Both the position numbers and the translations under genes were made by a program. Below, piece by piece: positions 4,927 through 17,873 of a stretch of DNA of 64,000 nt (position 1 is the first letter of the stretch; each line of letters begins with the position of its first letter). The stretch comes from Acidobacteriota bacterium (GTDB lineage: Bacteria; Acidobacteriota; Vicinamibacteria; Vicinamibacterales; CAVVIG01): positions 186,001 through 250,000 of the forward strand of contig QHWB01000052.1 of NCBI GenBank assembly GCA_003222395.1, given 5' to 3'. The notes beneath the pieces are model-generated. The model did not search any database and had not been told where the DNA came from. It worked only from the letters and a program-made list of their open reading frames with translations.

Positions 4927-5892
4927 CTACTTTCCCGTTTCGCCGGCGCGGGCGCCGCGAAGGACGCCTTCCACCGCCCGGTTTCCCTCGTGGCACGCGT
5001 ACTCGTAAATCGTGTACGCGCGATCGCGATGCAGCGGAATCGACACCGTCCACGGCCGCGTGAACATCGCCGGATCGTCAATCGTCGCTTCGTAGGTGAT
5101 CGTGTTCGCGTCGATCGGCGTGAAGCGCTCGACGACGTGCAGCGATTCGGTCTGCGGCACGCCTTTGATGCGGCCCGCCGCCGCCGACGTGGCAATCCAC
5201 CCCTTGTTGTTGTAATTCGTCGTGTCGACGATGAGCGTGTTCCCTTCCCAATGACCGCGCGGATCGCCGTTCCACGATCGGACGCGCGACGGCAGATGCG
5301 CGCGGCCGTCGATCGGGATGATGCGCGGCTCGTGAATCATCTCGTAGTGAATCATCACGTAGCCCGGCGTCTGTACGATCTGGTACGCGTTGTTGTAGCC
5401 GGCGGGGAACATGCCGCCGGGCACGCCGCGCGTGATGCACCGATCCCACACGCTCATGAACTCGTACGAGTCGCCTTCGTGCGCGGCGTTGTTGCGGCGC
5501 GCCGCTTCGGCTTCCGGCCGCAGCGGCACGCGCCCGTCCGGCGGATCGACGACGAGCGACGTGCGCCGCGTCGAGACGACGCGTTCGCCGGAATCGAACC
5601 AGAACTGGTTGTAGCTGCCGACGTCGCCGGCGCGCGGCGGACCGTCCTCTTCGCGGGCGCTGGCGGCCTGCCGCTCGAGCGCGGCGGCCTCCGCTTCGGT
5701 CAGGAACGCCTTGTCGCGCAGATTCGCCGGCCGTTCGAGCGGCGTGATCGTGGCGTTGGTCCAGACGCCCTGCAGGTTGGGTTGACCGTCGGGCGTGCGC
5801 GGCGGCGTCCACGCGCCGGATTGTCCGGCGGCGGACACGCCGCCGAGCGCGGCAGCGGCCACGACGAGGGCGAGTCGGATGTTTCGATGCAT
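4927..5892 (-). CDS. Secreted protein of unknown function
   Basis: 321 residues from ATG 5892. A GGAGG six bases upstream supports this start over the ones further 5'. Residues 1-25 form a signal peptide (MHRNIRLALVVAAAALGGVS). The mature part has QPNLQGVWTNATITPLERP near its N-terminus and YEMIHEPRIIPIDGR, HWEGNTLIVDTTNYN and VVERFTPIDANTITYEATI further on. This family of about 300-350 residues is common and multi-copy in acidobacterial genomes, always annotated as hypothetical as far as I recall. The regular beta-rich segments suggest a small beta-barrel or sandwich. No catalytic motif was recognised. It lies on the same strand as the propeller gene upstream, 85 bases away. Confidence 0.75.
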   Translation of the reverse strand: MHRNIRLALVVAAAALGGVSAAGQSGAWTPPRTPDGQPNLQGVWTNATITPLERPANLRDKAFLTEAEAAALERQAASAREEDGPPRAGDVGSYNQFWFDSGERVVSTRRTSLVVDPPDGRVPLRPEAEAARRNNAAHEGDSYEFMSVWDRCITRGVPGGMFPAGYNNAYQIVQTPGYVMIHYEMIHEPRIIPIDGRAHLPSRVRSWNGDPRGHWEGNTLIVDTTNYNNKGWIATSAAAGRIKGVPQTESLHVVERFTPIDANTITYEATIDDPAMFTRPWTVSIPLHRDRAYTIYEYACHEGNRAVEGVLRGARAGETGK

Positions 5893-5977
5893 CTGTCCTC
5901 CCGACTGCCGGAGCGAGAACCTACATAATCGATAGCTGTCATAGCCACATATATAGCGCCCGAGCGCCGGCATCAGG

Positions 5978-7114
5978 TCATCGCGGCCGCACGACGTGGA
6001 AGGTGTTGTACATCATGTCCGCGTCAAGGGTAATCCGGCGGAGGTACTTGAATCCCTCCGCCTCGTAGAGATCGATGGTGTTCCCTGCTTCGTAGATGTA
6101 GAGAATCCGGCCGTTGGAGCTCGATCGAAGGGCCATCCGCGGGCGCGCGTCGAAAGTCACCTTGCTCTGAAACTTTCTGCCCGACATGTCGATCGTCCAG
6201 AGCTCGTACCGACCGATGTCCTGGAGCAGCATGTAGCCGTGCTTGCGGTCGCCTGCGAGTGCGAAGCTCACCTCCGCGTGTTCCGACGCGGGACCGAGCG
6301 GAAAGAAATCGATGCTCTTCCGTCCGAGGTTGACGCGGCCGACGACCAGCATGCGCCGCTTCTGCACCGGATCGCGCACCGTGAACAAGGCGGTGAAGTA
6401 GCCGGGCTCATCGTTGGTCTCGTCCATCGAGCTCAAATCGAAGCGGCCGACCGCGGCTTCGTTGGGCAGCGACAAATCCCACGCGTCGACCTTCGACAGG
6501 CTGGCCGCGTCGTAAATCACGATCTCGTTGGCAAAGACGTACAGCAGCTTCCCGTCGGGCGAGAAGCGGAGCTGCAGGTAGTAGTACTGCGGCTCGGGAT
6601 CGGTCGCCCATGGAACCGTTCGAACGACCTTGTGCTCCTTCAGGTCGTATTGAATGAACGTCGGAGCGCCAATCTCGAACCGGTCGACGAGCTTGGTGGC
6701 GGTACGCGCGACGAGCACCATGAAGCGGTTCTGCGGATCGACGTCGAACGCGAGCGCGCGGACGTGTCGATCCCCTTCGCTCAACGTGAAGGTGTCGAGC
6801 GTCTTTCGGCTCGCCACGTCGATGATCTCGAAGCGCTCCTGATCGGCGCTCTGGACGTAAAAGCGCGTGGCGTCGGCGGAAAGACGCATCGCCCACATGA
6901 GGCCCGTCTGCAGTGGAATTTCCGCCGTCAGTTTTTCCGTGGCTTCGTCGATGACGGCGATCCGCCTCGCGTAGGACCCGAGGTAGATTGTGCCGGTACC
7001 GCCCGTGATCTTCGGCGGGTCTGCCGCATCGACTGCAGCCACAGGCGCAGCACGGGAGTAAATGACGGCGGCAATCAAGCTGCAGGCGGCCGCCGCGGAC
7101 GACACGCGTCTCAT
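5978..7114 (-). CDS. Secreted beta-propeller protein (YVTN / amine-dehydrogenase beta-like)
   Basis: 378 residues with an N-terminal signal peptide (MRRVSSAAAACSLIAAVIYS). The rest is a series of four-stranded blades, each with a hydrophobic strand and an aspartate turn: RIAVIDEATEKLTAEIPLQT, FEIIDVASRKTLDTFTLSEG, LLYVFANEIVIYDAASLSKV, YELWTIDMSGRKFQSKV, and ILYIYEAGNTIDLYEAEGF. This matches seven-bladed propellers of the YVTN or quinohemoprotein amine-dehydrogenase beta type. No haem or quinone ligand was seen, so a binding role is as likely as a catalytic one. It follows the TonB receptor gene by 31 bases and may be co-transcribed with it. Confidence 0.78.
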   Translation of the reverse strand: MRRVSSAAAACSLIAAVIYSRAAPVAAVDAADPPKITGGTGTIYLGSYARRIAVIDEATEKLTAEIPLQTGLMWAMRLSADATRFYVQSADQERFEIIDVASRKTLDTFTLSEGDRHVRALAFDVDPQNRFMVLVARTATKLVDRFEIGAPTFIQYDLKEHKVVRTVPWATDPEPQYYYLQLRFSPDGKLLYVFANEIVIYDAASLSKVDAWDLSLPNEAAVGRFDLSSMDETNDEPGYFTALFTVRDPVQKRRMLVVGRVNLGRKSIDFFPLGPASEHAEVSFALAGDRKHGYMLLQDIGRYELWTIDMSGRKFQSKVTFDARPRMALRSSSNGRILYIYEAGNTIDLYEAEGFKYLRRITLDADMMYNTFHVVRPR

Positions 7115-10315: not shown

Positions 10316-13300
10316 TCACTGTCGCGCCCGAGCGAATCCGGCGCGAGCGGCGGTCGATTTCGGGTCGAGCGACAACGCCTCGGCGAAGTAGCCGGCGGCA
10401 GCGGCACGGTTGTCGGCCGACATCTCGAGAAGGCCGAGATTGACATAGGTGGCGGCGTCGCGCGCGTCGAGCCGGAGCGCGGTTTCCAGCGCCCGCCGCG
10501 CTTCGACCGTATGGCCAAGCATCGCCTCGATCGCGCCCGTCAGGTTGTGAGCCGCCGCATAACCCGGATCGATTGTCGTCGCTTGTCGCACCAGGCCGAG
10601 AGCCGCCGGCAGATCACGGCGCAGATATCTGGCCGCGCCCGCGTAGTACTCGGTGGCTGCGCGAAGCGGCGCCGCCCGCTGAAGCTCCGCCACGACCGGG
10701 TCGAGCCGTTCGACGTCGCCGACGTCGGCGAGGATCGACGCCAGTTGCTCGAGCGCAGCCGGCGTCCCCGGCGCGATGCGGCACGCTTCGGCGGCAATGT
10801 CGATTGCTCGATCGAGTGCGCCTGTCGCAGCCAGCAGCCTGGACATGGCGATCCGGATCGACGGATCACGCGGGTGCGTGCCGGCCCACGATTCGAGCAG
10901 CGTCAGCGCTCGCTCCTCAGCATGGGCGGCGATTGACGTGCGCACGAAGCCGTCGAGCGACGCCGCATCGGTCGCCTCGCGGGTCAGGCTGCTCAGATAG
11001 GCGTCGAAGGCGTTGCCGTAATCGTTCGCCGCAAGGAGCATCGCGCCGCGATTCCGCCACTCCGGCGCCGTCGCCGCTTCCCGGGCTTGCCGAATCGCAG
11101 CCGGCGCCGCTTTCTCGTCGACGGCCTGCCGCAACGCCGACGCGTTGTCGCGCGACGTGCGGTTCGCGACCGCGCGCGGCCCGGAGAATTCGAGCGCCGT
11201 GCGATCGTCGGTCTGTACGGCGGCGCCCGCGGCAAACCGCGAAATTTCGGCGGGGCCGGCCGCGAAGAGCGACAGGATCTCGAACGGTTCCAGCACCGAC
11301 TGCGCGCGCAGACCGGCCGCCACACCGGACCGCTGCCAGCCACGTGCGACGTTCGCCAGCAGATCGTCGATCGGACTGGTCGACGCGACCAGCAGAACGT
11401 CGCTGTCGCCCACGAGCCACGCGGTTGCGCCGGGGAAGACCGCCAGGAACGTCGCCAGAATCGATCGGAAATCGGCTTCGCTGATGTCGTACGTGTGCGC
11501 CCACTGGCAGACGATGCCGCCAGGCGCCAGCCGCCGGCGGACGGCGGTGAAGAACTCGCGCGTGAAGAGCGCCGCGACGCCCGCCATCCACGGATTCGAG
11601 GGCTCGGAGACGATGACGTCGTACTGCTGCGACGACAGCAGCAGATGCGAACGGCCGTCGCCGACGATCAGGCGGGTACGCGGATCGTCGAGCGCCTGCC
11701 GGTTGTCCGCCGCGAAATAGCGCGACGCGTCGACGACTTCGGGAGAGATCTCGATGACGTCTGCGCGCGAAACCGGATGCGTCAGCGCCGCGCCGAGCGT
11801 GACGCCGCTGCCGAGGCCGATGATGCCCACGTCGCGCGGCTTCGCGTGCAGCAGCAGCAGCAGATGCGCGAGCATCTTCTGCGTCAGCATGTCGCCGCCG
11901 TTCGACGCGTCGACTTTTCCGTCGACCGACATCGACAGCGTTCCGGTCAGCCGCTTCAACGACACGGTCGATACGGCGCCGTCGCGATAGTAGACCAGCG
12001 TTCCGCTCTTGAGCGCCGATTCGAGGTCGAGGTCGCGGTCGACGTACTGCGCGTACTTGTAGACGCCGCTCGCCAGCAGCTCGCGATCCCACGACGGCAT
12101 CCAGACGACGAGCGCAAGCGCGATCGCAATCGGCGCGAGGCTCGCGACGCGCGCGCGTCCCGGGACTCGGCCCCACACGACCACGACGCCGGCGGCAATC
12201 ACCACCAGGAGGCTCACGGCGCGAAAGGTGTGCTGAAGACCAATCGCGGGGATTGCGATGAAGCCGGCCGCCAGCGATCCGCCGACCGCCGCGACGGTGT
12301 TGACCGCGTAGACGACGCTGATGGACCGTGCCGACGAACCGTCGCTGCCGCCGGCCATGTCGAACGCCAGCGGAAATGCCGCGCCGAGACACACGGCGGC
12401 CGGCAGAAGCAGCGCCGCGGCGAGCAGCGTGTGTTCAGGAAGCGACTGGTTGAACGCGCTCGATCGCGCGAGCGACCGGGCGATGAGACGCGGAACGTAT
12501 CCGCCGATCAGCGCGCCGCTCCAGATCATCGCAATCGACGCGAGCGCGAGCACGAGTGACAACGCGACGGCCGGCCGGCGCGTGCGAGCCGAAAATACGG
12601 CGCCCAACGTCGACCCGATGGCCGTGCCCGCGACGAGCGCCGTCACCGTCGCGGAGAACGCGTACGTCGTCGGTCCGACGACGAGCGCCAGCGCGCGCGT
12701 CCAGGCGATTTCGTACATCAGCGCCGCGAACCCCGAGATGCCGAGAGCGGCCGCCGGCAGCCATGACGGAGATCGCGCCTGCTGTGGCGCGGGCCTTTCA
12801 GGCGGTGGCGCGCGCCTTTCAGGCCCGCGTCGGCGGCCCTGAAGGGGCCGCTCGACCCGATCGCCGCGACGGACGATCACCAGCGCGGCGGCACACGCGA
12901 CGCCGGCTGCCGCAATGCCGACGAACGTCGTCGCTCGCACGCCGATCGCTGGAATCAGGACGAAGCCCGCCGCCAGCGCGCCGGCGGCAGCGCCGACCGT
13001 GTTCGCTGCGTAGAGTGCGCCGCCGCCCCGCCCGGCCTCCCCCGAGCGCACGAACCACCGCACCGCGATCGGAAACGTGGCGCCGAGCGCCAGCGCCGGA
13101 ACGAACATCACCGTGAGGCACGACACGAGTCGGATCGATGAAAAGAGAAAACCGGCGGCGCCGTTTCGGTAGGACCAGACGAGCAGCGGCGTCAGCGCCG
13201 CGAGCTCGTATGGAACGACGATCGCGATCGCGGCGACCGTCAACTCGAGCGCGATGTACGTGTAAAGGGTTCGAGCCGGCGTCAGCCGCGGCGCGACGCG

Positions 13301-13471
13301 GCCGCCGAGAAACGATCCGGCGGCCAGTCCACCCATGAACGCCGCGACGACCGTGCTCGCGGCCGCGAGGCCGTGCCCCATGTAGAGCGTGAGGAGCCGC
13401 GTCCAGGCGACTTCATAAATGAGGCTCGCCAGCCCGGAGCACGCGTAGGCGGCGAGAAATAGGATGGGCAA
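10316..13471 (-). CDS. MFS-like / spermidine synthase-like / TPR fusion protein
   Basis: 1051 residues. Residues 1-205 and about 235-470 are two homologous membrane halves; both contain a GLASLIYEVAWTR-type motif (GFAALMYEIAWTR in the second). About residues 490-700 resemble spermidine synthase: MSVDGKVDASNGGDM, then the SAM loop GLGSGVTLGAALTHP, VIEISPEVVDASRYF and VGDGRSH. From about 745 to the end there are tetratricopeptide repeats. Membrane-fused SpeE-like proteins are widespread and mostly uncharacterised; polyamine synthesis is not proven for them. The 206-229 linker is encoded by repeat DNA (see 12784-12853). The gene starts 3 bases after the cytochrome/TPR gene ends, so the two are one transcript. 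Confidence 0.87.
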   Translation of the reverse strand: MPILFLAAYACSGLASLIYEVAWTRLLTLYMGHGLAAASTVVAAFMGGLAAGSFLGGRVAPRLTPARTLYTYIALELTVAAIAIVVPYELAALTPLLVWSYRNGAAGFLFSSIRLVSCLTVMFVPALALGATFPIAVRWFVRSGEAGRGGGALYAANTVGAAAGALAAGFVLIPAIGVRATTFVGIAAAGVACAAALVIVRRGDRVERPLQGRRRGPERRAPPPERPAPQQARSPSWLPAAALGISGFAALMYEIAWTRALALVVGPTTYAFSATVTALVAGTAIGSTLGAVFSARTRRPAVALSLVLALASIAMIWSGALIGGYVPRLIARSLARSSAFNQSLPEHTLLAAALLLPAAVCLGAAFPLAFDMAGGSDGSSARSISVVYAVNTVAAVGGSLAAGFIAIPAIGLQHTFRAVSLLVVIAAGVVVVWGRVPGRARVASLAPIAIALALVVWMPSWDRELLASGVYKYAQYVDRDLDLESALKSGTLVYYRDGAVSTVSLKRLTGTLSMSVDGKVDASNGGDMLTQKMLAHLLLLLHAKPRDVGIIGLGSGVTLGAALTHPVSRADVIEISPEVVDASRYFAADNRQALDDPRTRLIVGDGRSHLLLSSQQYDVIVSEPSNPWMAGVAALFTREFFTAVRRRLAPGGIVCQWAHTYDISEADFRSILATFLAVFPGATAWLVGDSDVLLVASTSPIDDLLANVARGWQRSGVAAGLRAQSVLEPFEILSLFAAGPAEISRFAAGAAVQTDDRTALEFSGPRAVANRTSRDNASALRQAVDEKAAPAAIRQAREAATAPEWRNRGAMLLAANDYGNAFDAYLSSLTREATDAASLDGFVRTSIAAHAEERALTLLESWAGTHPRDPSIRIAMSRLLAATGALDRAIDIAAEACRIAPGTPAALEQLASILADVGDVERLDPVVAELQRAAPLRAATEYYAGAARYLRRDLPAALGLVRQATTIDPGYAAAHNLTGAIEAMLGHTVEARRALETALRLDARDAATYVNLGLLEMSADNRAAAAGYFAEALSLDPKSTAARAGFARARQ
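12784..12853. repeat. Palindromic repeat cluster inside the MFS/spermidine synthase gene
   Basis: Two head-to-tail units, GTGGCGCGGGCCTTTCAGGC (12784-12803) and a close copy at 12805-12830, are followed by a hairpin, GCGGCCCT/GGGGCCGC with GAA loop (12833-12851). The same words occur at 16458-16494 and 44374-44400. The cluster stays in frame and encodes an Arg/Pro-rich linker (RRRGPERRAPPPERPAP) between the two membrane halves of the host protein. Confidence 0.8.
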
Positions 13472-13474
13472 ATG

Positions 13475-15553
13475 CTATCGCTCGACGAGCATGGAGTCGC
13501 GATACGGACGGTGATGCCGGTAGAGATCGGCGCGCGCCCGGACGAGCGAGGCATCGTCGCTCCTCCCGCGACGGGCCGCGATCTGCAGCGCCGATTCCGC
13601 GATCTCGACCGCGCGCCGGAAGTCGCCCGCAGCCGCGTGCGCCGCCGCAAGGGTATCGAGCGCTCTCAGGTCGGCGCGGTTCGTGAGGGCGGCCGCACGT
13701 TCGGCGAGCTGCACCGCTTCAGCGGGCCTGCGAATCGCGGCGTCGGGCGACGTCGCCAGAATCCACGCGAGGCTCGTGAGCGGCTCGATCAGATCGGGCC
13801 TCGTCGCCAGCGCGGATCGGTATTCGGCCATCGCGTCGCGCACCTGTCCTCGTGACACGAGCGCGCCGGCGAGATTCGTGCGCGCCGCCGCGTTCGACGC
13901 GTCGATCTTCAGCGCCGCCCGCAGCTGTTCGATCGACTCGTCGAATCGTCCCTGCGCTCGGAGGACGGCTCCGAGATTGACCCGCGCCGCCACGTGATCG
14001 GGCTGCAGCGCGAGCGCGCGCGTAAAATGCTCGGCCGACTCGGCGAGTCGACGCTCGGCCGCCAGCGCGAGGCCGACGTTGTAGTTCGCCTCGACCGATT
14101 GCGGATCGAGCCGCAGCGCGGCGTCGAGGTGCGCCATCGCACGATCGGTCCGTCCCAGCGACAGGTAGATCGCCGCCGCCGCCTCGTGAAGCCGCGCGCT
14201 GTCGGGATCGGCCGCAAGCATCGATTCGTAGCCAACCGCATCCTCGGCCATCACCTTCGGACCGAAGTCGCCGCGCAGCCGGACGCGGTCGGCGTCGGAG
14301 CGCGGCAGCACCTGCAGCCACAAATCGCCCATCTCGTCGTCGCTGTTCTGGCCCCATCGCACGCGCTTCGGCGGCCGATCGGGATTGCGCCGGTTCGCCG
14401 CTGAATTGTCGTAGGTGTAGCGCATCCGCAGCGTCGTGCCACGCGGAAGCGACACCGGCTCGACGTACCGGTACACGTCCTGCCAGTTGAAATCCCAGTC
14501 GGGAATCGAGATGAGCCATTTCCGCGTGCCGTCGGGCAGCGTCGCGGTTCCTTCGACGGATCGCGCGCGGTAGTGCGCGTGCGGCTGCACGCCGTAGACG
14601 TCGACGTCGACCGGCAACACGTATTCGTCGTTGATCTCGTAATGGCTATCGGCAGCGGCGATGTCGATGTTCTCGCGGCCGAGCCGCAGCATCACCGGCG
14701 TCCGCTGCGGCGCCTGATCGGTGAAGAAGAATCCGATGCTCGGCTGAACCGCCTGCAGCGTATCGGCAGGGTGCAGATGCAGCTGCATCACGAGATCGCT
14801 CGTCGGATCGAGCCGCCACGCCATCCCCGGCGCGAGCAGCGGGGGCAGCTGCCCGGGCGTCCATCCGAGAAAGTGCCCGTCCGGGAACTCGCCGGTCATC
14901 AGCCGGCCGTCGAATCCCGGCAGCGGATCGGCCTCATCGAGCGCGCGGGACGAAGAGGTCCGATCGATGCGCAGGTTTGCATGGTGAACGACGGCGGCGT
15001 TGCCGGGACGGAATTCGATCCCGCTGACGTACCGCACGCGATCGATCGGGAGCGGGATGACGAAATTTCGAAGCGCGTCGGCGCCGCCGGCTTGCACCAC
15101 GTACGGATCTCGAAGCGTGACGATCAGGTCGGGCACACCCAGCCGCCAGCCGTCAGCCGGTTGCGGGGGCGGCGGAAGATCGCGCCGGTCGCCTTCGATC
15201 GCTCCGTCGGCGACCCATCTTTGGATGATGTCTATCTGTTGATCGGTCAGACGCCGCGCGCCGGCGAACTCGCCGCGGCCCGGCTCCGGTTTCCACGGCG
15301 GCATCGCGCGGCTGCGCGTGGCGCGCGCGATCGCGGCGGCGCGCGGTCTGACGTCTTCGTACGCCACGAGGCTGAAGCCGCCGATGTCGCCGGGATGATG
15401 GCACGACGCGCAGTGCTCGAAGAGAATCGGCCCCACGTCCTTCGCGAACGTCATCGGCGCCGCAGCATCGGCGCGTCGCGCGATCGCGGCAAGTCCGGCA
15501 CAGAGCAGGCCGGACAGGAGGTGCGATCCGAGCGACGCTCGCCGCGAACTCAT
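13475..15553 (-). CDS. Cytochrome c / copper monooxygenase-like / TPR protein
   Basis: 692 residues. A signal peptide (about 1-31) is followed by a cytochrome c domain with one haem site, C48-A-S-C51-H52, and a possible axial methionine in SRAMPPWKPEPG. Residues of about 130-400 resemble the copper type II ascorbate-dependent monooxygenase fold: VVHHANLRIDR, MQLHLHPADT and VQPHAHYRARS supply paired histidines. From about 440 to 640 there are TPR repeats (AMAHLDAALRLDPQSVEANY and similar). It is therefore an exported haem protein with a possible copper centre and a protein-binding tail. The substrate is unknown. It lies 3 bases upstream of the MFS/spermidine synthase fusion and 30 bases after the gene at 15584. 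Confidence 0.85.
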   Translation of the reverse strand: MSSRRASLGSHLLSGLLCAGLAAIARRADAAAPMTFAKDVGPILFEHCASCHHPGDIGGFSLVAYEDVRPRAAAIARATRSRAMPPWKPEPGRGEFAGARRLTDQQIDIIQRWVADGAIEGDRRDLPPPPQPADGWRLGVPDLIVTLRDPYVVQAGGADALRNFVIPLPIDRVRYVSGIEFRPGNAAVVHHANLRIDRTSSSRALDEADPLPGFDGRLMTGEFPDGHFLGWTPGQLPPLLAPGMAWRLDPTSDLVMQLHLHPADTLQAVQPSIGFFFTDQAPQRTPVMLRLGRENIDIAAADSHYEINDEYVLPVDVDVYGVQPHAHYRARSVEGTATLPDGTRKWLISIPDWDFNWQDVYRYVEPVSLPRGTTLRMRYTYDNSAANRRNPDRPPKRVRWGQNSDDEMGDLWLQVLPRSDADRVRLRGDFGPKVMAEDAVGYESMLAADPDSARLHEAAAAIYLSLGRTDRAMAHLDAALRLDPQSVEANYNVGLALAAERRLAESAEHFTRALALQPDHVAARVNLGAVLRAQGRFDESIEQLRAALKIDASNAAARTNLAGALVSRGQVRDAMAEYRSALATRPDLIEPLTSLAWILATSPDAAIRRPAEAVQLAERAAALTNRADLRALDTLAAAHAAAGDFRRAVEIAESALQIAARRGRSDDASLVRARADLYRHHRPYRDSMLVER

Positions 15554-15583
15554 TTCCGGATGTGGCGTTCGGACACCCGAGCG

Positions 15584-16447
15584 TCACTTCACCGTGACGG
15601 TGATGTCTTTTCTCGTCGAGAGCCTGCCGTCGCTGGCCAGGGCGACCAGCGTGTAGGTTCCGGGCGCCGCAAAGCGCGCCGTCGTCGTCGTCTTGTCGCC
15701 GACGACCCGAACAGGATTGGTCTCGAATGTCACCTTCCCCGGCCCGCGATACGCGACCCACGTCAGGCGCAATCCGATCATCGCGTTCGGGTTCGATGAG
15801 GTGTTGCGCTGCGACTGAAAGCGGGAAGTCGGCTCGGTGGGGCGCGGCGCCACCGGCGCGCGCGGCTTCGGCAGCCCGTCGTCGGTGACATTTGCCGTGA
15901 GGCTGACGGGGGCGCCGGCGGTCGCCTCGTCAATCGGCGCGACGGCGAGCGTCGGCGGCTTGTTGAGATCCTCTTCGCCGAACCGCATCGTGTTGTTGCC
16001 GTTGGCGATCATGATGTGCTCGTTGATCTCTTCCGCCGGCAGCAGCTTCGACACGACCTTCTCGGTGACGCCGTTCGCCGTAATCGACCACGTCATCGCC
16101 TTGTCGCCCCAATCCTTCGGGACGCGGACGCGGAAAATCCGCGGCTGCCGACGCGGCGCGAAGTAGGTCGGCTGTCCTCTGTCGGGACCGTCAGGCATCA
16201 CCGAGTTGTCGGGCCCCGGCGGGATCACGAGCTCTTCTTCCGTATTGCGATTCAGGTAGCCGAACACGAAGTCGAACGTCTCGTCGGGATTCCTGATCCA
16301 CCCTTCGAGATATGGAACCACGCTCCGGCCGCTCGCGAACTTGATATCCGGAATGTAGGTGGGCGGAATCTGCGCCTGCACGAGATGCGCCGCGACGGCG
16401 AGCGCCGCCGTCGCAGTACAAATGACGCCGCCGACGCGTCTCATCAT
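15584..16447 (-). CDS. Secreted protein with Ig/PKD-like C-terminus
   Basis: 287 residues from ATG 16447; a second ATG follows at once, and AGAGG stands five and eight bases from the two. Earlier starts would lie in repeat DNA. MMRRVGGVICTATAALAVAA is a signal peptide. The N-terminal part (PTYIPDIKFASGRSVVPYLEGW, FGYLNRNTEEELVIPPG) is a beta-rich module of unknown role. The C-terminal part reads like a PKD or Ig-like domain: PVSLTANVTDDGLPK, then TTARFAAPGTYTLVALASDG and KDITVTVK. It is flanked by two cytochrome c/monooxygenase-like genes on the same strand, which suggests a shared complex or pathway in the periplasm. No enzyme motif was seen. Confidence 0.75.
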   Translation of the reverse strand: MMRRVGGVICTATAALAVAAHLVQAQIPPTYIPDIKFASGRSVVPYLEGWIRNPDETFDFVFGYLNRNTEEELVIPPGPDNSVMPDGPDRGQPTYFAPRRQPRIFRVRVPKDWGDKAMTWSITANGVTEKVVSKLLPAEEINEHIMIANGNNTMRFGEEDLNKPPTLAVAPIDEATAGAPVSLTANVTDDGLPKPRAPVAPRPTEPTSRFQSQRNTSSNPNAMIGLRLTWVAYRGPGKVTFETNPVRVVGDKTTTTARFAAPGTYTLVALASDGRLSTRKDITVTVK

Positions 16448-16457
16448 GGGAACCTCT

Positions 16458-16494
16458 GTGGCGCGGGCCTTACAGGTGTGGCGCGGGCCGCTCC
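16458..16494. repeat. Tandem GTGGCGCGGGCC repeat
   Basis: Two copies of GTGGCGCGGGCC (16458-16469 and 16478-16489) stand ten bases upstream of the start at 16447, in the space between two genes. They match the units inside the MFS/spermidine synthase gene and the palindrome at 44374-44400. Confidence 0.7.
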
Positions 16495-16523
16495 ACATCA
16501 ACTCTGCAATCCACCGTTGGCGT

Positions 16524-17873
16524 TCACCGATCCTGCGTCTGTGTTCTCGCCTTTGCTTTTTGACGATCGGACACGCGCTGATCGAAATCGCCCTTCTCGA
16601 GATACGTGAGGCTCACCCACGCGAAGCTCATGTCGTCGATCGAGCGCGGTCCCTGACCGACCCACGTGTTCGGATCGGGATTGGTCCTGTTGGCGCTCGT
16701 GTTGTCGTGCCACGAGATGATATGGATGATCGTGCCTTCCGGCAGCAGCGGCGCGACATCGTCGGCGTACGGATAGGTGACGCTCCAGTCGAAGTTGAAA
16801 TTGCTGACGCACGTGAGCATTTCGGTGCGCGCCGGTCCGGGCCGCGCCGAATCGGCGCGGATATCCGGATAGATGGCCTCGATGCACTGCGCCTTGCCGC
16901 GCATGTGCATGTGCGGCTGGAACGCCGAAATCAGCGCCGGCTTCGGCAGCCGGAAGTAGCCGTCGTTGCGCACGACCTGGCCGGCGGGAATATCGAGGTC
17001 GGTGACGTCGCCCATGTGCTGCGTGAACGCGACGTACTTCGGCACCTGGCGCTTCGGCATCACCGTCAGCCCGAGCTGAACGTCGACCGGCGTTTCTTCA
17101 CCGTCCGGCGTCATGTGCAGGTTGAAATTGATCCTCGATCCCGCCCTGATCAAACGTCCCGAATCGGGCGGGAAGACATCGGCGGCTTTGCCGATCGCGT
17201 ACTCGTTCAGGAAGAAGCCGGTCGGATCGTCTTCGTCCTCGATGACGTTCGTCGTGGCGTGATGAATCACTTTGTACGCGCTCATGTGGATCGGCCGCGT
17301 CTCGATCGCCGTCACGTACATGTCTTCCTTGAACCCGGGATCGATCGTCACGTCGATGAACTCATCGGGACCGTGGGCCTTCAGCATGTACGGCTTGGGC
17401 ATCTTGACGATGACGGTCGGCTGGATGTGCCACGCCTCGAGGTCGCCGAAGTTGCGCGCGGGCGGCATGTCGGCGGCGTTGCCCTGGGGCGCGCCCTGGT
17501 CGACCCACTTGACGATCGTTTGAATCTCCGCCTCGGAGAGCGACGGATCGTTCTTGTACTTCTGGATGCCGACGTGCTTGTCGATGAACCATGGCGGCAT
17601 CTCGCGGTTCGAGACTTTCGCCTTGATCGATCGCGCCCACGGCCGCGCTTCCTGATACGTCAGCAGCGACATCGGCGCCATCATGCCGGGCCGGTGACAG
17701 GTCTGGCACGAGCGCTGCAGAATCGGCGCGACGTCCCTGGTGAACGTCACCTGACGGTCGCCGGCGGCGGCCGATGAATCCTGCGCGCGCACTGCCGCCT
17801 GCGTCATCGTGGCCGCGGCAGCAACGACGACAACGCCGAGCAAGCTCGAGTTTCTTTGCCACCCGGAATTCAT
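16524..17873 (-). CDS. Cytochrome c / copper type II monooxygenase-like protein
   Basis: 449 residues from ATG 17873, with GAGGAGG seven bases upstream. Signal peptide 1-31. The haem site is C56-Q-T-C59-H60, followed by a REMPPWFIDKHVG stretch with a candidate methionine ligand. The C-terminal 300 residues carry the histidine pairs of copper type II ascorbate-dependent monooxygenases: VIHHATTNVIE, NFNLHMTPDGEE, AFQPHMHMRGKA and IISWHDNTSANR. Unlike the gene at 13475 it has no TPR tail. The two are paralogues separated by one secreted-protein gene. The protein probably acts in the periplasm; its substrate is unknown. The divergent spacing to the MBL gene at 18105 suggests back-to-back promoters. 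Confidence 0.87.
   Translation of the reverse strand: MNSGWQRNSSLLGVVVVAAAATMTQAAVRAQDSSAAAGDRQVTFTRDVAPILQRSCQTCHRPGMMAPMSLLTYQEARPWARSIKAKVSNREMPPWFIDKHVGIQKYKNDPSLSEAEIQTIVKWVDQGAPQGNAADMPPARNFGDLEAWHIQPTVIVKMPKPYMLKAHGPDEFIDVTIDPGFKEDMYVTAIETRPIHMSAYKVIHHATTNVIEDEDDPTGFFLNEYAIGKAADVFPPDSGRLIRAGSRINFNLHMTPDGEETPVDVQLGLTVMPKRQVPKYVAFTQHMGDVTDLDIPAGQVVRNDGYFRLPKPALISAFQPHMHMRGKAQCIEAIYPDIRADSARPGPARTEMLTCVSNFNFDWSVTYPYADDVAPLLPEGTIIHIISWHDNTSANRTNPDPNTWVGQGPRSIDDMSFAWVSLTYLEKGDFDQRVSDRQKAKARTQTQDR

Follow-up and report, generated by a model that had tools for sequence, protein, structure and literature searches.

The stretch of DNA considered here (the window: 64,000 nucleotides, positions 186,001 to 250,000 of contig QHWB01000052.1 in the Acidobacteriota assembly GCA_003222395.1, a genome of 7.74 Mb in 118 contigs) carries four closely spaced minus-strand genes at 10316-17873. 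In the direction of transcription, they encode a haem/copper protein that we term CuS, a PKD-like protein that we call its partner, a second haem/copper protein ending in a TPR tail (CuTPR), and a membrane protein that joins a spermidine-synthase-like domain to TPRs; the gaps between them are 76, 30 and 3 bases. An earlier note on this DNA had suggested that the two TPR tails could bring these four proteins together at the membrane. We consider it reasonably probable that CuS, together with the PKD-like protein, constitutes an exported copper monooxygenase of two components, which would be fed electrons through its haem, would act with a bound partner, and would occur in variants for different substrates. 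The features of the pair are as follows.

16524-17873, minus strand: CuS, a predicted secreted c-type cytochrome with a dicopper core of PHM/DBH fold, 449 amino acids
17694-17708, minus strand: haem-binding motif CQTCH, CuS residues 56-60
17586-17600, minus strand: MPPWF, CuS residues 92-96, with M92 as the likely axial haem ligand
17259-17264, minus strand: CuH ligands H204 and H205 of CuS, kept in 108/108 rows
17115-17117, minus strand: CuH ligand H253 of CuS, kept in 108/108 rows
16905-16913, minus strand: CuM ligands H321 and H323 (HxH) of CuS, kept in 108/108 rows
16629-16631, minus strand: CuM ligand M415 of CuS, placed on DBH M487 and PHM M314 by offset
15584-16447, minus strand: PKD-like partner from its ATG start; a TTG at 16501 is an alternative start

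The copper core and haem of CuS

Textbook accounts of dicopper hydroxylases centre on PHM and DBH, which in animals have been investigated with ascorbate as the electron donor; copper enzymes of this kind yield noradrenaline and peptide amides. A model of CuS, built from 35 sequences with a mean predicted local distance difference test score (pLDDT) of 84.7, aligns over residues 151-429 with human DBH (VIA-align Z 20.9, 261 residues aligned, 2.8 Å) and also with PHM (Z 19.8, 242 aligned, 2.7 Å). The next fold family, a PNGase, reaches only Z 8.1, and Foldseek matches the model to a structure of PHM/DBH type with E 8.1e-11. The ligands of CuS follow the order expected for PHM/DBH, namely H204-H205, H253, H321-x-H323 and M415. 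The report on human DBH (PDB 4zel; PMC4846438) names H262, H263, H333, H412, H414 and M487 as copper ligands, and these six match those of CuS in order within a shared two-domain CuH/CuM core. For rat PHM (PDB 1phm, 6ala), which shares the core fold and copper ligands with CuS, the CuH ligands are H107, H108 and H172, and the coppers are reduced by ascorbate (PMC6123673); the CuM methionine, M314, we took from a structure title among the Foldseek matches. As the structural alignments end at model residue 426 (DBH 498, PHM 325), the equivalence of M415 with DBH M487 and PHM M314 holds if the last 11 residues are gap-free.

All six copper ligands are present in 108/108 CuS-type rows (a partner gene accompanies 105 of them and is lacking for 3) and in 15/15 rows nearest CuTPR (12 TPR-tailed, 3 short). 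The alignment behind these counts kept 133 of 157 copper hits for coverage and then 123 distinct sequences, and since coverage was required up to near the CuM methionine, it favours proteins that keep that residue. Profile matches are sparser: at E 0.01, Cu2_monoox_C is found in 3 of 35 CuS relatives (the A1 set) and a cytochrome c family in 24 of the same 35, and no NCBIfam copper family matched among the CuS relatives. A distant relative at locus L191, which belongs to a different family within the phylum, passes Pfam Cu2_monoox_C (23.5 bits, cut-off 23). Pfam misses the short copper protein, so that fold and ligands settle the assignment for CuS itself; on the modelled fold, the six kept ligands and the Pfam pass of L191, the predicted core of CuS is of the PHM/DBH dicopper type, with a c-type haem in front of it.

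The haem part is nearly as constant. Among CuS-type rows with a letter at the position, H60 is found in 102/102, C56 in 101/102 and M92 in 104/104, and M92 is also present in 15/15 rows nearest CuTPR. CuS thus combines the CXXCH motif and the candidate axial methionine of a c-type cytochrome, M92 being the likely axial ligand. On a simple hydrophobicity scale, CuS and the PKD-like protein each begin with a hydrophobic, signal-like segment, and on the same scale no such N-terminal segment was found in CuTPR. With haem motifs of the forms CQTCH and CASCH, and copper ligand motifs across both CuS and CuTPR, the earlier note was right in recognizing two haem/copper proteins here.

The PKD-like partner and its pairing with CuS

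Behind its signal-like segment, the partner has an N-terminal domain at about residues 58-160 (numbered from the TTG start) with the signature FGYxNRN...GQPTxF, and a C-terminal Ig/PKD-like domain at about residues 177-305. The latter is a beta-sandwich of Ig/PKD type (Z up to 10.2, and 9.0 against the PKD domain 4xed), although Z values of that size are common among beta-sandwiches. Pfam PKD matches 8 of 32 partner members at E 0.01, the window protein not being among them, and weak Foldseek rows leading from the partner to ammonia monooxygenase were set aside as reflecting a common beta-sandwich arrangement. The fold search barely covered the N-terminal domain. This domain is probably the partner's essential portion, because a distant genus (f55/g121) keeps it alone beside CuS: the 8/8 sampled genomes match the N-terminal domain only, directly upstream of the CuS gene (reading frames were inspected for two), and at L191 the genes for a single-domain partner of 166 amino acids and for CuS overlap by 4 bases. 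At L191:3102-6542, an AbgT-type transporter gene, the single-domain partner and the copper protein stand in a row.

The pairing itself is nearly strict. Loci in named genomes were collected using only the partner as query, the 80 best being kept out of 561 confirmed stretches. CuS adjoins the partner in 76/79 of these loci; in the remaining 3, no more than 64 bases separate the start of the partner from a contig end. The pair recurs in 29/29 best-match loci of relatives (whose genomes are partly shared with the 79 loci), in 8/8 intact copies of the source genome, and in 12/12 matches outside the order (11 genomes; a single genus supplies 8 of the matches), as judged by visual comparison of coordinates. 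When all 128 hits, which are partly redundant, are pooled, 123 have CuS and partner next to each other on one strand at most 600 bases apart and 3 lie at contig ends; in the other two (L069, L070), a weak PKD-like gene is flanked by a TPR-type copper gene on one side and a divergent CuS-type gene on the other. These pooled counts are not independent, as the loci L029-L057 and L058-L136 lie partly on the same contigs (e.g., L038/L069 and L039/L070). CuS comes before its partner in 118 pairs and after it in 6. Outside the 12/12 set, G029, a genome of the same order, has a weak match to the C-terminal part of the partner only, without a copper protein.

The two components also vary together and can be physically joined. 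Pairwise distances of CuS and partner correlate with r 0.74 over 105 distinct pairs, where the largest value in 2000 permutations was 0.13, and with r 0.75 among the eight paralogues of the source genome. At locus L012 of that genome, both components are fused, partner first, in a single protein of 716 amino acids. In 60 genomes searched, near full-length relatives of this fusion, at 65-79% identity, occur in G024, G016, G025 and G021, another in G010 covers residues 41-631, and three further partial matches span the junction. The link between a haem/copper protein and the PKD-like protein that the earlier note had drawn is therefore genuine, given near-constant adjacency, fusion and co-variation.

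The pairs have multiplied within genomes. Partner genes occupy 8 places in the source genome (8 intact genes, besides one broken place), and 18, 16, 15 and 8 in four relatives, whose 10-21 partner matches reduce to these numbers once gene pieces are merged by eye. The records with related partner genes are mostly labelled Acidobacteria or subgroups of that phylum (Bryobacterales, Terriglobia, Vicinamibacteria, Vicinamibacterales); some environmental assemblies bear unexpected labels such as Acidimicrobiia, Pseudomonadales and Bifidobacterium.

Several observations weigh against the reading of CuS and its partner as a two-component monooxygenase. The C-terminal region of the window CuS has no Pfam or NCBIfam match, its Cytochrome_CBB3 score of 20.7 bits lies below the Pfam cut-off of 27, the Pfam copper domain in CuTPR reaches 16.5 bits against a cut-off of 23, and a sequence-profile search of solved structures did not reach PHM. 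A paralogue in the source genome, L024, keeps just one of the six copper ligands in the alignment; it dropped out of the filtered ligand count. The haem of CuS could be a sensor or a structural part. Pairing also has its exceptions: leaving aside the 12 TPR-tailed rows, 9 of the 129 in the tree are copper proteins that have no partner gene nearby; and across 199 genomes of the phylum, the copper protein is found in 41 and a partner match in 20, match numbers here being lower bounds, as at most 12 and 8 candidates were scored per genome. Finally, the data do not show that catabolic neighbours are enriched: a PQQ dehydrogenase lies within 10 kb of 3 of 16 partner genes in G063 where 1.8 would be expected (p 0.27), a weak test that covers 3 contigs and uses 40 of 62 dehydrogenase matches.

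Part of this would suit a different function, in which CuS is a copper/haem redox protein rather than an oxygenase, binding copper and relaying electrons or sensing copper or oxygen, while the partner serves as a docking module. The haem domain could make CuS a plain relay, a ligand-poor paralogue exists, and multihaem cytochrome genes accompany 8 of the 97 loci that we surveyed with a crude, purpose-made gene caller (the 79 partner loci, 17 copper-protein loci of the source genome, not all of them paired, and the window; several share genomes). However, both complete hydroxylase copper sites, CuM methionine included, are retained in 123/123 filtered rows, the filter requiring coverage up to near that methionine, and we regard a non-oxygenase role as rather unlikely, though it is the strongest of the alternatives considered here. 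The ligand-poor paralogue (L024:7332-8549, on contig C63 of the source genome) retains its cytochrome part.

CuTPR, the synthase fusion and gene order

Downstream of the pair lie the following minus-strand features.

13475-15553, minus strand: CuTPR, a paralogous cytochrome and PHM-like core with a C-terminal TPR tail, 692 amino acids
13484-14194, minus strand: TPR tail of CuTPR (Pfam), about residues 454-690
10316-13471, minus strand: fused MFS-like membrane domain, spermidine-synthase-like domain and TPR tail, 1051 amino acids
7146-10088, minus strand: TonB-dependent receptor-like protein (Pfam CarboxypepD_reg and OMP_b-brl_4)

CuTPR is 53-55% identical to its best relatives in the source genome and about 33% identical to CuS. 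In a fast tree, which carries a warning that long branches may meet, the TPR-tailed copper proteins form a single separate clade (12/12 rows, support 99), and the same 12/12 rows keep the six copper ligands after the coverage filter. On this tree the TPR-tailed proteins are old sisters of CuS, and not a recent duplicate of the neighbouring gene. Five other TPR-type copies exist in the source genome; for four of them the fetched stretch shows no PKD-like gene, and the fifth shares its stretch with a separate pair. We would suggest that in CuTPR the TPR tail may have replaced the partner. Two contigs speak in part against the tail doing the partner's job: both L206 and L207 have, immediately before a TPR-type copper gene and in the same orientation as it, a weak PKD-like gene (27-28% identity), which is the window's arrangement too; this PKD-like gene is divergent from a CuS-type gene (L206:2904-5705, L207:2815-5820). 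Given these two cases, the stronger notion that TPR-tailed copper proteins never occur with a partner gene was dropped.

The last of the four genes encodes, as the earlier note had recognized, a membrane spermidine-synthase/TPR fusion: it passes NCBIfam NF037959, "fused MFS/spermidine synthase", at 120.8 bits (cut-off 40), contains TPRs by Pfam, and has 14 hydrophobic segments, some overlapping, within its first 460 residues on the simple scale. It differs from NF037959 in its added TPR tail and in reading EPSNP at the place of the acidic motif of the synthases. Because of that replacement, and because it misses the cut-offs of the spermidine synthase equivalogs (TIGR00417, 95 against 249.55 bits; NF002956, 114.9 against 472), polyamine synthesis by this protein is doubtful, and it is probably not a polyamine synthase. 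At E 1e-100 the gene is found in 19 of 27 genomes of the family, the source genome included.

It could be argued that the whole stretch, from CuS, the PKD-like protein and CuTPR to the synthase/TPR protein and the receptor, specifies one complex held together by its TPR tails. The spacing of the first four genes is tight; a TPR-type copper gene (42-57% identical) lies within the pair locus in 6 of the 79 loci (L069, L070, L104, L107, L114, L118); the arrangement at L206 and L207 is window-like; and a synthase/TPR gene lies near a pair in two records, L066 and L092. The wider comparison, however, goes the other way. Among 20 fetched regions around synthase/TPR relatives, chosen from 27 matches other than the window and some of them cut by contig ends, none contains a CuS or PKD-like gene, the closest relative (74%) included; a TPR-type copper gene occurs in one (L161), a bare TPR match in one (L174) and a TonB receptor in eight. 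Judged by its coordinates, a further match outside the 20 (G010:C170) lies on the contig of L092, where a pair is present. Likewise, the window order of pair, CuTPR, synthase/TPR gene and receptor is kept in 0/11 contigs bearing CuS relatives of 61-77% identity, several of which are short. On these 11 contigs, a synthase/TPR gene lies near the pair in one (L201); a TPR-type copper gene occurs in two, beyond the receptor and on the opposite strand; and a receptor gene of 64-72% identity is found in three, being divergent in L198 and directly following the pair in L206 and L207 (64-69% identical to the window receptor). We therefore give little credence to a single complex. The pairing that the earlier note described stands, but its assembly of four proteins through two TPR tails, for which conservation of the gene order was one of the proposed checks, finds no support. 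The spermidine-synthase/TPR protein was rejected as a member of the system on the strength of the 20 fetched regions, and its gene is probably a neighbour, and not part of the module. The four genes may still form a local operon in the source genome.

Proposed function and wider neighbourhoods

Taken as a two-component monooxygenase, the pair would work as follows. CuS and its partner would be exported, to the periplasm or the cell surface, and electrons from the periplasmic respiratory chain or its carriers would enter through the haem of CuS and reduce CuH and CuM, so that CuS would not require the ascorbate used by its animal relatives. CuM would then activate O2 and hydroxylate a C-H bond of the substrate. 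The partner may bind CuS through its N-terminal domain and hold it in place on the substrate or the cell surface, with the Ig/PKD-like domain as an accessory, and the many paralogous pairs per genome may represent variants for different substrates. CuTPR would be a related enzyme, with a TPR tail possibly in place of the partner.

This proposal has a parallel in cellobiose dehydrogenase, whose haem domain feeds electrons to secreted copper lytic polysaccharide monooxygenases; the likeness is one of principle only, since those enzymes have another copper fold, a single copper and a b-type haem. DBH differs from CuS in being ascorbate-dependent and lacking a cytochrome c, and CuS is only 13% identical to it; PHM likewise has no fused haem. 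The fold and copper ligands that CuS shares with PHM might suggest a bacterial peptidylglycine-type hydroxylase amidating peptides, but this we consider very improbable, because the residues that bind the peptide carboxylate in PHM (R240, two before the HxH motif, N316 and Y318) are replaced in the 108 CuS-type rows; the place of R240 is taken by Q (82 rows), E (19), M (4), A (2) or T (1), and those of N316 and Y318 mainly by F/I/H and W/L, as placed by offset from the ligand motifs. CuS has the fold and copper sites of a known kind of enzyme; its fused c-type haem, its constant partner and the multiplication of the pairs are new within the literature searched, which held no description of a haem-fused, partnered dicopper arrangement and left most subscription papers and preprints outside.

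A broader proposal, which we advance only tentatively, is that these proteins belong to a large and so far nameless class of dicopper hydroxylases, wired through cytochrome c, independent of ascorbate and reliant on a dedicated beta-sandwich partner. DBH carries an extra Ig-like beta-sandwich, DOMON, before its core, and the N-terminal domain of the partner might take the role of DOMON. If this were true, such hydroxylases, given the 8 to 18 partner genes in each of the five genomes counted, would be a main route by which these mostly uncultured acidobacteria begin to oxidise many different substrates outside the cytoplasm. A bacterial family with PHM/DBH copper sites and a fused haem would also allow the entry of electrons into the coppers to be observed at the haem, and the pairs point to an unexplored capacity for oxidation in common soil and water bacteria.

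The neighbourhoods of the pair are varied, which fits, without proving, a module adapted to many substrates. TonB receptors occur in 27 of the 97 loci, a raw count without background comparison from which we claim no general link, PQQ dehydrogenases in 25, metallo-beta-lactamase-fold proteins in 8 and cytochrome proteins of the DUF1592 kind in 8. Dehydrogenases of the PQQ kind are numerous in some genomes (60 to 63 matches each in G063, G044 and G054), and a relay from the hydroxylase to a PQQ alcohol dehydrogenase, which the 25 loci had suggested, is not claimed, as the weak test in G063 did not show an enrichment over expectation. The multihaem cytochromes (7 or 8 haems, about 555-684 amino acids; 8 loci), which accompany pairs in a few lineages, are possible electron feeders. 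Their genes lie downstream of the pair in L105, L106, L107, L127 and L132, upstream on the other strand in L011 and L091, and beside a PKD-like gene at a contig end in L122.

In three loci, a gene of the membrane fatty-acid hydroxylase kind follows 28-29 bases after the PKD-like gene (L110:3244-4041, L111:10861-11667, L123:4656-5036), with PF04116 in L111; an upstream gene of HpcH/HpaI type runs in the opposite direction. Within the window, a protein without any Pfam match at 4930-5973 has relatives that recur in 17 of the 97 loci, and the adjacent gene at 5981-7114 encodes a beta-propeller that weakly matches the beta subunit of quinohemoprotein amine dehydrogenase (48.5 bits, cut-off 223.2).

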